This document shows, in pieces, positions 12,931-47,590 of a stretch of 64,000 nucleotides of DNA. Both the position numbers and the translations under genes were made by a program. How positions within the stretch are numbered: the stretch's first letter is position 1; the number at the start of each line of letters is the position of its first letter. The notes beneath the pieces are model-generated. The model had not been told where the DNA came from. It ran no database searches and was given only the letters and a program-made list of their open reading frames with translations. Origin of the DNA: an uncultured Dehalococcoidia bacterium (lineage in GTDB: Bacteria > Chloroflexota > Dehalococcoidia > Lucifugimonadales > Australimonadaceae); contig OY282355.1 in NCBI GenBank assembly GCA_958295525.1, forward strand, positions 2,103,931 through 2,167,930. The letters run 5' to 3'.

Positions 12931-14141
12931 TACGCCGCCCCCTGCATAACCGAATGCTCCGCGATTGCCCGCAGGCTCGCCTCATACGGCGGACGCGCCG
13001 CTCCGCGTTCCGTGACGATGGCCGCGATCAGCCGCGCCGGAGTCACGTCGAACGCGGGATTCCATACGCTCACCCCCTCCGCCGCGACTCGCCGACCGGC
13101 GAGCGACGTCACTTCCTCGGCGGAGCGCTCCTCGATAGGAATCGCCGCCCCGCTCGCCGTCCCGAAATCCACCGTCGAGACGGGCGCCGCGACGTAGAAC
13201 GGAATCCCGTGCGCCGCCGCGAGCGCCGCGAGCGCGTAGGTGCCGATCTTGTTGGCCGCGTCGCCGTTCGCCGCCACTCGGTCGGCTCCGGTCACCACCG
13301 CGGAGACCCGCCCGGACGCCATCAGCGCGCCCGCCGCCGAATCCACGATCAGCGTCGCCGGAACCCCCAGCCGCGCCAGTTCCCACGCCGTCAGGCGCGC
13401 CCCCTGCATCCACGGGCGCGTCTCCGTGCAAAAGACGCGCAGCCGCCTCCCCGACTCCCACGCCGCCCGAATGATCCCCAGCGCCGTGCCGTAGCCCGCC
13501 GTCGCCAGCGCGCCGGTGTTGCAGTGCGTCAGAACGCCACCGGACTCCGGCAGCAGCGCCGCCCCGCAGCGACCAATGGCGCGGTTCGCCTCGACGTCCT
13601 CCTCCCGCATACGGTGCGCCAGAGCGAGAATGCGGTCGGCGGCCTCGGCGGGCGAGCCGCACGCGCGGGCGGCGTCCATGCACCGCCTCACGGCCCAGCC
13701 CAAGTTGACGGCGGTCGGCCTCGCCGCAGCGAGCGCGGCGGCGTCCGCCTCCAGCCGCGAGAGAAAGGCGCTCATCGCCCCATCGCCCTGACCGCGTAGG
13801 CGGGAATCCCGCCCCTCTTGCGCCGTCGTTCCCGCGTAGGCGGGAACCTTGCCCTCCTGTCCCGCCATTCCCGCGTAGGCGGGAACCTCGCCCCCTGACG
13901 GCGCCCCCAGCGCAGCGCCGTCGCCCCGGGCGGCGAGCGCCATCGCGTAGGCGGCGGCCACCCCGATTGCGGGCGCGCCCCGCACCTGCATCCCGCGTAT
14001 GGCGCGGACGACCTCGGCGGGGCTGCTCGCGCTCGCCCACTCCTCGCTTTCGGGCAGGCGCGTCTGATCCAGCAGATGCAGCCGCCCGTCCCGCCATACG
14101 ATGGGGGAGAATTCCGCGCCGATTTCGGGTTCGTAGGTCAA
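12930..14141 (-). CDS. mtnA: Methylthioribose-1-phosphate isomerase carrying an in-frame repeat insertion
   Basis: MtnA isomerises methylthioribose 1-phosphate to the ribulose form in methionine salvage. Family motifs are [106 protein letters not shown] and [11 protein letters not shown]. Between [10 protein letters not shown] and [14 protein letters not shown] lie about 45 extra residues ([30 protein letters not shown]) encoded by three copies of the dispersed palindrome, with no stop or frameshift. The start is uncertain: no ATG precedes the domain, so the TTG at 14141 is taken, without a clear SD. Confidence 0.88.
13793..13900. repeat. Three dispersed palindromic repeats inside mtnA
   Basis: Copies of the 20-base palindrome (form ATTCCCGCGTAGGCGGGAAT) occur near 13795-13812 (one arm partial), 13830-13849 and 13869-13888, spaced by about 39 bases, which is a multiple of three. 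Two are read in one frame as VPAYAG and the third one base shifted as DSRLRG. None introduces a stop codon. Confidence 0.9.
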
Positions 14142-16267: not shown

Positions 16268-16414
16268 GCGAGATTCCCGCCTGCGCGGGAATGACGAGAC
16301 AGAGGGGCGAGGTTCCCGCCTACGCGGGAACGACGAGACAGGGGGCGAGATTCCCGCCTACGCGGGAACGACGGGGCAAGGGGGGCGAGATTCCCGCCTA
16401 CGCGGGAACGATGG
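16268..16414. repeat. Four tandem dispersed palindromes
   Basis: Four copies of the palindrome GATTCCCGCCTACGCGGGAA (variants TGCGC for TACGC) are spaced by 38 to 40 bases. The linkers, such as CGACGAGACAGGGGGCGA, are also similar to one another, so this is tandem duplication of one unit and not a CRISPR array. Confidence 0.85.
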
Positions 16415-16443: not shown

Positions 16444-17997
16444 CTACTCGCGCTTGTAGAGGGCGGCGTCGGGGTGGAAGGAGCGCCATCCGTGCCAGAA
16501 CGACGTGATCGTGGGGATGCGGGAGAGCGTTCGCGGGCCGCCGGCCTCCGCCAGCGCGTCCTCGCCGGGCGTCCACAGCGCGCCGTCGGCGCTGCGGAGC
16601 GATCCGCCGTCCTGCGCCGTGAACGTCTGCGCCCCGCGCTCGTAGACGCGCGCCTCGCCGAACGCGCTTCGTCCGGTGAGCACGATGGGCCGCCCGCCGA
16701 CGGCGTCGTTGATGACGGGCTCGTCCGCGAAGGCGGAGACGGGGTAGGCTTTCGCCTCGCCGCCGAGCCGCACGCCGATAACCGTCTCTTTCTGCGCGAG
16801 GTCGCCGCTCCGTCCGAAGACGGGGAACATCGTCAGCGGCGAATTGAAGTAGTTGTAGTAGATGGCGTCGGGCTCCCATTCGTTGCGGTAGACGTCGGAG
16901 GGATAGACGCCGGTCTCGACGTCCAGCGCGGTTGTGTCGGGATGCTCGGCGAGCCACTCCTCCCACGTTGTGAGAACGGAGGGGAAGAAAGGCAGACGGA
17001 CGCCGCTGTCCGCGAGGGGCCCGGCGACGGGTTCGCCGGTGAACTGATTCCAGAGCGAATTCGTGGCGCGGTCGTACATCAACTTGTTGCTGCGGTAGAG
17101 CATCCCCGACGTGCCGAAGGTGGTGGGCTCGCCGTTGATCTTTGCGGAATACACGATTCCGGCGAAGCAGAGCGTTCAGTAGGCGAGAGCGATCGGCTCG
17201 CCTCCGAGGACGTCGTTGGCCATCTCGTGCGGATTCATAATGCGGAGCGGGTAGGCGCGATGCTCGCCGTTGATCGAGACGCCGAACACGCGGTCGCGCG
17301 GGTCGAGATAGCCGGCCTCGCTCGCCGCCAGCGCAGGGGGCGACTGCAGGTCGGGGATGCCGTCCACGCGGACGCCGCCCCAGGCGATTTCGGCGAGGTC
17401 AATGCGCTCGGAGCCGGGGACGGACGTGAGGAAGGCGGCCATGCGCGGGTCTATGATGCCCAAGAGGTTGGCCTTCCATTGCGGATACTCGGACGGGGGC
17501 GCGAATTCGGCGCGCCTGGGGCCGAGCCGCTCCATCGCGGCGTTCCACGGGCGGGCGTCGAGCCAGAAGTCCTCTCCGGTGAATTGCTCGAGGGCGGCGC
17601 GGTACGCCTCGTTCAAGGCGGAGCCGCTCCAGAAGCGCAGGATTTCCACGATGACGGGCGCTTGCGAGACGTCGTTCTCGGCCCTGGCGTCCGCGATTGC
17701 GTCCAGCGTCGTCTGCGGCTCGTGGCCGAGGCCGGAGTAGATGCGCCACATCGTGTTGTTGGGATCGTAGGGCGCGGCGCTTTCGGGGGTCGCGCCGACC
17801 GGAGACGGCGCGGCGAGAGTCGGCGCGTCCGCTGCGGCGGATGGCGAGGGGGTCAGCGAAGGCGGCGGAGCGGGCGTTGCGGTCGCGGTCGGCGTCGCGG
17901 GCTCCGGCGCGGTCGGCGTCGCGCAGCCTATCGCTGCGGCGGAGGCGAGCAGAAGGGGAACGATCAGGGCGGAGAGCGGGGGACGCCGTCGCGGCAT
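16444..17997 (-). CDS. DUF3179 lipoprotein with one in-frame TGA at a conserved Cys position (selenocysteine candidate or nonsense mutation)
   Basis: Two collinear frames form one DUF3179 protein of 517 codons. The N-terminus is a lipoprotein signal (AAAIGC) with a Thr-Pro linker. The first part ends GGEPIALAY, then TGA at 17178-17176, then TLCFAGIVYSAKINGEP, TFGTSGMLYRSNKLMYDR and SLWNQFTGEPV in the same frame. Family members usually read AYCTLCG here, so the TGA replaces the first Cys of a CxxC. Bases 17161-17145 just downstream can form a six-pair stem with a five-base loop CGTGT starting 20 bases after the TGA, a SECIS-like position. A recent stop mutation or a sequencing error is equally compatible. 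The downstream half could also start at GTG 17154. Function of the domain is unknown. Confidence 0.8.
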
Positions 17998-37135: not shown

Positions 37136-37240
37136 CGTCGTTCCCGCGCAGGCGGGAATCTACTGGGGCCCGTCCCCGCGAAGGCGGCTCCCTGCCGGGG
37201 CGCGACGGGGGCGAGATTCCCGCCTACGCGGGAATGACGA
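37136..37240. repeat. Two dispersed palindromes between tracrRNA and the PPOX gene
   Basis: Copies lie near 37139-37158 (GTTCCCGCGCAGGCGGGAAT) and 37213-37238 (GATTCCCGCCTACGCGGGAA). The stretch 36967-37135 has no supported gene. It contains GCGCCCGCAACGCGCCATCC-type low-complexity sequence only. Confidence 0.8.
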
Positions 37241-37288
37241 CCATGGGGAGCAGGCGGGACGCTGGGGGCCTGGAAGTTTGGGCAACCC

Positions 37289-37711
37289 CTAAACGCCGTG
37301 CCCGACGATGCGGTCGGGCCGCAGCAGCACGGCGACGCGCCCCTGCTCGACCATCACGCGGTCGTACTCGTCCCAGTCGGGATGCTCCTTGCGCGCGGCG
37401 GTTCGGTAGACCTCGCGCAGGCGCAGGCGGAGCGTCTCCGCGTCCGTGTTGCGCGCGCCCTGCATCTCCGCCTTGCCGTCGAGCGCGGCGAAGCGCCGGT
37501 TGTCGGGGCTGACGATCATCATCGCGCAGCGCGGGTCGCGGGCGAGGTTGAGCGCTTTCGCGTTGCGCGAGCGAGTGGTGAAAGCGAGCCCGCCGTCCAG
37601 TTTGCCCGCCGTGACGAGGCTCTGCTGAGGCATCCCGTCCCGCCGGAACGTCGTGAACACGACGACGCTGTTCTGCTCCAGCAATCCGTCCAAGTCGTCC
37701 AGCGCGGGCAT
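37289..37711 (-). CDS. PPOX-class flavin/F420-dependent oxidoreductase
   Basis: This 140-residue split-barrel protein belongs to the pyridoxamine 5'-phosphate oxidase superfamily. Typical features are the N-terminal SVVVFTTFRRDGMPQQSLV (first strands), GGLAFTTRSRNAKALNLARDPRCAMMIVS, where the K..NL.RDPR pattern is diagnostic for the family, and the late RVAVLLRPDRIVGHG. Cofactor (FMN or F420) and substrate cannot be told from sequence alone. The ATG at 37711 is chosen for its GGAGG seven bases upstream over an earlier in-frame start. It stands alone between repeat-rich gaps downstream of cas9 and has no evident CRISPR role. Confidence 0.82.
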   Translation of the reverse strand: MPALDDLDGLLEQNSVVVFTTFRRDGMPQQSLVTAGKLDGGLAFTTRSRNAKALNLARDPRCAMMIVSPDNRRFAALDGKAEMQGARNTDAETLRLRLREVYRTAARKEHPDWDEYDRVMVEQGRVAVLLRPDRIVGHGV

Positions 37712-37827
37712 AGGGCATCCTCCAAGTCGCGGGCTCACGGCGAACTGTACCGGATGCGCGGCGCGGCGTCAAAGCGCGGCGCTGGCGGGAATGACGGGGG
37801 AGTGATGCGGGAGCGACAGAAGGGGCT

Positions 37828-37942
37828 AGGTTCCCGCTTTCGCGGGAATGACGTGGCGCGTGGGGTGGTTTGGAGACGATGCGCTTGCGCGCCTCGTCCG
37901 GCGCTTGCGCGCCTCTGGATTCCCGCCTACGCGGGAATGACG
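37828..37942 (-). mobile_element. Composite palindrome element, copy B
   Basis: Read on the minus strand it has the same parts as copy A: CATTCCCGCGTAGGCGGGAA, core GGCGCGCAAGCGCCGGACGA, CCACGCGCCACG and right arm CATTCCCGCGAAAGCGGGAA. It lies in the 385-base gap 37712-38096, which otherwise holds only more palindromes. Confidence 0.75.
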
Positions 37943-38060
37943 GGGCACAGGGGGCGAGATTCCCGCCTACGCGGGAATGACGGGCCCCAGTAGGTTCCCG
38001 CCTGCGCGGGAACGACGAGGCAGGGGGGCGAGGTTCCCGCCTTCGCGGGAACGACGGAAT
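37943..38060. repeat. Three further dispersed palindromes
   Basis: Copies near 37959-37978, 37994-38013 and 38033-38052 follow element B with linkers such as CGGGGCACAGGGGGCGA, giving an irregular tandem cluster up to the 3' end of the surface-protein gene. Confidence 0.8.
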
Positions 38061-47283: not shown

Positions 47284-47400
47284 CGTCATTCCCGCGCAGG
47301 CGGGAATCCAGAGGCGCGCACGCGCCGGACGGGGCGCGTCGCGCCCCGTCCCCATGTCTCCCACGGCGCCACGTCATTCCCGCGCAGGCGGGAACCCACT
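47284..47400 (+). mobile_element. Composite palindrome element, copy D
   Basis: It has the parts in the order of copy A: CGTCATTCCCGCGCAGGCGG, CCAGAGGCGCGCACGCGCCG, GACGGGGCGCGTC, CACGGCGCCACG and right arm CATTCCCGCGCAGGCGGGAA. It lies in the 449-base gap 47234-47682. Confidence 0.75.
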
Positions 47401-47442
47401 GTGGGAGCGCCTCCGCGCGCATGTGGGGACCATCTCTCTACT

Positions 47443-47590
47443 CCGTCATTCCCGCGCAGGCGGGAATCCCGCCCCTTGCTCCCGTCATTCCCGCGCAGGC
47501 GGGAATCCCGCCCCTTGCTCCCGTCATTCCCGCGAAGGCGGGAATCCCGCCCCTGCTCCCGTCATTCCCGCGAAGGCGGGAATCCCGCCC
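47443..47590. repeat. Four tandem dispersed palindromes upstream of rpsO
   Basis: Copies of CGTCATTCCCGCGCAGGCGG start at 47443, 47483, 47522 and 47560, a period of 38 to 40 bases, with linker ATCCCGCCCCTTGCTCC nearly constant. All are in one orientation. Confidence 0.88.

Follow-up and report, generated by a model that had tools for sequence, protein, structure and literature searches.

Selenoproteins with a DUF3179 domain (pfam11376) are already known from prokaryotes. Two reviews (PMC9312934 and PMC13188914) include a "DUF3179 domain-containing protein, UxxC/T" in their tables of prokaryotic selenoproteins, and PMC9312934 credits the finding to Zhang & Gladyshev 2007, who reportedly described it in a deltaproteobacterial symbiont of Olavius algarvensis. 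Furthermore, public records (plasmids, mostly haloarchaeal) name relatives "DUF3179 domain-containing (seleno)protein". In the part of the literature that was searched, DUF3179 is mentioned by three publications, all of which lack a functional test, and no publication on DUF3179 in Chloroflexota was found there. The gene described here lies in a window of 64,000 nucleotides from an uncultured Dehalococcoidia bacterium. The initial annotation suggested that it may belong to an undescribed selenoprotein family, which is wrong, as the family has been tabulated before; the gene adds a member and not a new family. Judged by what the citing review says of the symbiont protein, both share the Pfam domain, the UxxC motif and the replacement of a conserved Cys by selenocysteine (Sec). 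The host of the window protein differs, being a SAR202-like member of the Dehalococcoidia, Chloroflexota, and the window protein has an N-terminal helical domain and a lipoprotein leader when set against the review's account of the symbiont protein.

The gene occupies positions 16444-17997 of the minus strand and comprises 517 codons from ATG to TAG if an in-frame TGA is read as Sec. This TGA (codon 274, 17178-17176) is the only internal stop of the frame (17997-16444), which confirms that it is the sole lesion of an otherwise intact DUF3179 gene. It occupies the first position of the CxxC motif that is invariant in the DUF3179 family and would encode the Sec of a UxxC motif (AY-U-TLC) in what is a Cys column of a 42-homologue alignment; the resolving Cys 277 (TGC, 17169-17167, minus strand) is invariant in the same alignment. 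The Pfam DUF3179 model (PF11376) matches residues 212-510, extending across the TGA on both sides, with 240 bits compared to a curated cut-off of 27.

Insertion of Sec depends on a dedicated machinery, for which the initial annotation proposed to search the genome, and the set proved to be complete. The source genome is a single contig of 2.51 Mb, which encodes a tRNA-Sec with the anticodon UCA (2236269-2236362), a full-length selB (the match covers positions 2-579 of 581), selA (499 bits) and selD (370 bits). The selD gene has an in-frame TGA of its own in the context SCAG-U-AGK, and SelD of this genome (G000; L018, 1531-1533) is itself judged to be a selenoprotein from this codon. An in-frame TGA in selD is common among Sec-decoding bacteria.

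A comparison with relatives revealed that the TGA is conserved. All five orthologues of the same genus (65-70% identity) and four further orthologues from Dehalococcoidia (44-52% identity) carry TGA at the identical codon and possess no other stop. At this site, TGC or TGT is found in around 70 remoter homologues, which belong to Alphaproteobacteria, Actinomycetota, Acidobacteriota, SAR324 and two Chloroflexi. The alignment of homologues thus shows TGA in close orthologues and Cys codons elsewhere, and the close relatives, in which other lesions would have pointed to decay, share the same TGA. When 148 genomes of the class were searched for DUF3179, 15 of them proved to have copies interrupted by a single TGA; TAG interrupts two copies, and TAA interrupts none. 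Twenty of these copies, 18 with TGA and two with TAG, were inspected: the TGA replaces the same Cys in 18 of 18 (UPLC, UTLC, UPIC, UIKC, UVAC, UIRC), whereas both TAG copies retain Cys at the Sec site and have their TAG elsewhere. In a tree of 62 domains, the window protein falls into a 13-member clade that consists of Sec forms only (support 100/97), the sister of which is Cys-only in the sample, and the starred branches of the tree require that Sec and Cys replaced each other three times or more in the DUF3179 family. L146-L148 form a divergent, long-branched group of Sec-containing DUF3179 proteins with the motifs UIKC, UVAC and UIRC. The presence of selA is modestly associated with TGA copies (13 of 15 genomes, compared to 77 of 133 others; p = 0.025, kinship ignored), and the difference is not significant when the TGA-copy genomes are compared with those that have DUF3179 without TGA (p = 0.10). 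selA was unmatched in two TGA-copy MAGs, G026 (69% completeness) and G150 (92%), which harbor the copies L131 and L148; this may be due to MAG incompleteness.

A SECIS-like hairpin is located downstream of the TGA (17161-17145, minus strand). Its six-pair stem is formed by CGGAAT (17161-17156) and ATTCCG (17150-17145), which enclose the loop CGTGT (17155-17151). The stem and loop are as initially described; the distance of 20 nt after the TGA applies to the start of the loop and not to the stem, which starts at 14 nt. A lower pairing of CTT (17167-17165) with AAG (17142-17140) can form as proposed: it is present in the minimum-energy fold of the segment (17167-17140) and is a possible, clade-specific candidate for an extension of the hairpin. 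The published rule for bacterial SECIS elements (PMC13188914) requires a loop of 3-9 nt, a stem of 4-16 bp, a G within the first two loop positions, a loop located 16-37 nt after the UGA and an energy of at most -7.5 kcal/mol. The geometry of this hairpin agrees with the rule (loop of 5, stem of 6, G at position 2 followed by U, spacing of 20), and its energy is borderline, with -5.1 kcal/mol for the bare hairpin, -8.1 for a 45-nt segment and -7.1 for another cut; the bare hairpins of the same-genus orthologues reach -8.8 to -9.3 kcal/mol, which is comfortable relative to -7.5. Taken alone, this copy folds with an energy that is unexceptional compared to shuffled sequences (z = +0.28). Randomising the synonymous codons produces an equally good hairpin in 0.66% of the trials (1313 of 200,000), and a comparable one follows 22 of 1295 codons (about 1.7%) in three genes of the window; at these frequencies, the hairpin by itself is no more than suggestive, and the case against a chance combination of TGA and hairpin is made mainly by comparative evidence.

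This evidence comes from 18 Sec sequences, 15 of which are distinct, and concerns a helix of seven pairs. Within this helix, 89.5% of the cells are paired compared to 71% after shuffling, and four pairs have changed on both sides, e.g., G-C to C-G exchanges at the two outer pairs and an A-U/C-G exchange in the middle of the helix. The covariation score amounts to 0.426, with a mean of 0.138 for shuffled alignments, and no slid register exceeds 0.067; the slid control is preferable, since related sequences can outperform shuffles without any structure. Of 16 distinct Sec forms, 10 have a strict hairpin, compared to 2 of 84 Cys forms. In 13 of 17 Sec forms, the best hairpin has a loop that begins 19-21 nt after the codon, while the loop position is scattered in Cys forms. 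Ten orthologues, the most distant with 44% identity, share the hairpin codons ATC GTG TAT TCC, and the invariant TAT contrasts with the codon preference in three genes of the window, where TAC is used 32 times and TAT seven times. Under the simple hairpin rule, no hairpin was found in the distant Sec copy L046 and a weak one in L059. Overall, the hairpin stays in register from one Sec clade to the next and shows compensatory changes, and it is mostly missing behind Cys codons. DUF3179 proteins of the Cys form from Alphaproteobacteria, Actinomycetota and Acidobacteriota, as well as a paralogue in the same genome (470550), share the domain and the position of the CxxC motif with the window protein, but differ from it by having Cys in place of Sec and mostly lack a SECIS-like hairpin. 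A copy of the Cys form is also present in Haloferax volcanii.

From the conservation of the codon, the machinery genes and the conservation of the hairpin, we infer that TGA 274 is almost certainly decoded as Sec, and the proposal that UxxC stands in for CxxC is strongly supported by the machinery, the conserved TGA with Cys elsewhere and the covarying hairpin. A plain nonsense mutation or a sequencing error, which would make the gene a pseudogene or an assembly artefact, needs only one substitution to turn TGC or TGT into TGA and would agree with the unremarkable energy of the hairpin. This explanation has next to no probability, as the same TGA recurs in separately assembled genomes of one genus and several families in an otherwise conserved frame, and as all inspected TGA copies are affected at this codon and both TAG copies elsewhere; pseudogene, frameshift and sequencing error were ruled out by the orthologues that share the TGA. 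Translation could also end at the TGA, either as a programmed truncation or with the downstream half re-initiated as a second gene at GTG 17154, from which a frame of 236 codons is indeed open. Such a split would run through the CxxC motif and through a conserved domain for which a single folding unit is predicted (pLDDT 92), the homologues with Cys form one unbroken chain, and the start codon would fall within the hairpin. An arrangement of this kind is very improbable, and two separate genes were ruled out by the continuous domain and the Cys homologues.

The UGA might instead be read as Trp, Cys or Gly, either because the code is reassigned or by means of a near-cognate tRNA. In principle, a shortage of selenium can lead to Cys being inserted at UGA; however, the genome encodes the complete Sec machinery, and the position of the TGA tracks Cys specifically. 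A reassigned code would give many read-through TGAs, whereas a scan of the window revealed just two further candidates, both of which are weak (40030 and 13896, both on the plus strand). No evidence was found for decoding of UGA as Trp, Cys or Gly, and there is very little probability that a residue other than Sec is inserted.

In the case of Sec insertion, ribosomes would arrive at UGA 274, where SelB bound to the hairpin (loop CGUGU, 20 nt downstream) would deliver Sec-tRNA(Sec); Sec would be inserted at position 274, and translation would proceed to the TAG. Sec 274 and the Cys three residues further on would most likely form a reversible selenenylsulfide, and this pair would perform a thiol/selenol redox reaction outside the cytoplasm. 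Such an extracytoplasmic Sec-Cys redox role of the DUF3179 protein is the most economical mechanism and is considered probable.

Positions 17997-17920 (minus strand) appear to encode a signal peptide with a probable lipobox (AAIG-C), and the leader is followed by a linker rich in Pro, Thr and Ala, which extends to about residue 70 and is modelled as disordered (pLDDT below 40). The orthologues also show a hydrophobic leader, a lipobox-like Cys (LVAG-C in L052) and a Pro/Thr-rich linker, which is why the window protein is probably exported and lipid-anchored. The DUF3179 domain, for which the model is confident (pLDDT 92), contains two repeats on the minus strand: repeat 1 (residues 237-345 approximately, 17289-16963) has the UxxC motif and a predicted Rieske-like fold, and repeat 2 (residues 400-513 approximately, 16800-16459) is homologous to it and has no CxxC (hhalign probability 98%, E 1e-13). 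Judging from these profiles, the domain is an internal duplication with its putative active site in repeat 1 only. Invariant residues of the 42-homologue alignment include C274, C277, E258, N261 and G244.

The predicted fold of repeat 1 resembles that of Rieske-fold proteins along almost their full length, foremost NirD (3c0d, 4aiv, 2jo6) and Rieske ferredoxins (2qpz). Its best structural match is NirD 3c0d, with a Z-score of 7.5, i.e., below 8, for a predicted model (98 of 106 residues, 3.5 Å); Foldseek gives an E-value of about 0.1. Among the matches listed for the domain model, 50 of 50 are Rieske-fold proteins, and in the full-length model, Rieske matches fall on repeat 2 as well. Unlike Rieske proteins, repeat 1 lacks the CxH...CxxH ligands: alignments of 42 sequences give two invariant Cys, three residues apart, and no invariant His. 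Profile similarity to Rieske dioxygenases of the same lineage was not detected either (hhalign probability 3.5%), a sequence search of the PDB returned no relatives at E-values up to 1, and no NCBIfam models matched. A location of the UxxC motif at the Rieske CxH site was also considered and is unsupported by the aligned ranges of the structural matches. Since the scores are middling, the models predicted and the sequence profiles unlinked, the Rieske-like fold serves as a lead. Tentatively, DUF3179 proteins could consist of tandem Rieske folds that have no Fe-S site and carry a CxxC or UxxC motif in repeat 1, and the window protein could be an extracytoplasmic lipoprotein selenol/thiol oxidoreductase of a family in which Sec and Cys were exchanged at least three times. 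Rieske domains as such are abundant in these bacteria, with at least 36 in the 2.5-Mb genome of the window (G000) and 49-85 in genomes of the same genus, which amounts to a large expansion.

Within the genus, thiL-tsaE-tsaB lie divergently upstream of the DUF3179 gene, but this neighbourhood is missing in L058 and thus says nothing about the function of DUF3179. The gene is followed by one cluster of the REP-like palindrome TTCCCGCGTAGGCGGGAA, which occurs at more than 25 sites of the window in clusters with a spacing of about 40 bp (54 strand-matches compared to 0.18 expected). Examples are 16274-16408, 13789-13885, 37141-38051 and 47289-47582; at 13789-13885, the copies lie in frame within an ORF similar to methylthioribose-1-phosphate isomerase (VPAYAG...), as if they had been inserted.

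Reading TGA 274 as Sec mends an annotation that would otherwise break the gene in two or cut it short in a lineage of Chloroflexota that includes SAR202-like bacteria, and the DUF3179 selenoprotein family gains a Sec clade with good support. The hints from fold and duplication provide a first testable idea of the role of DUF3179 proteins; if the idea is true, a selenol/thiol centre would reside on a fold that has rarely been linked to selenoproteins.
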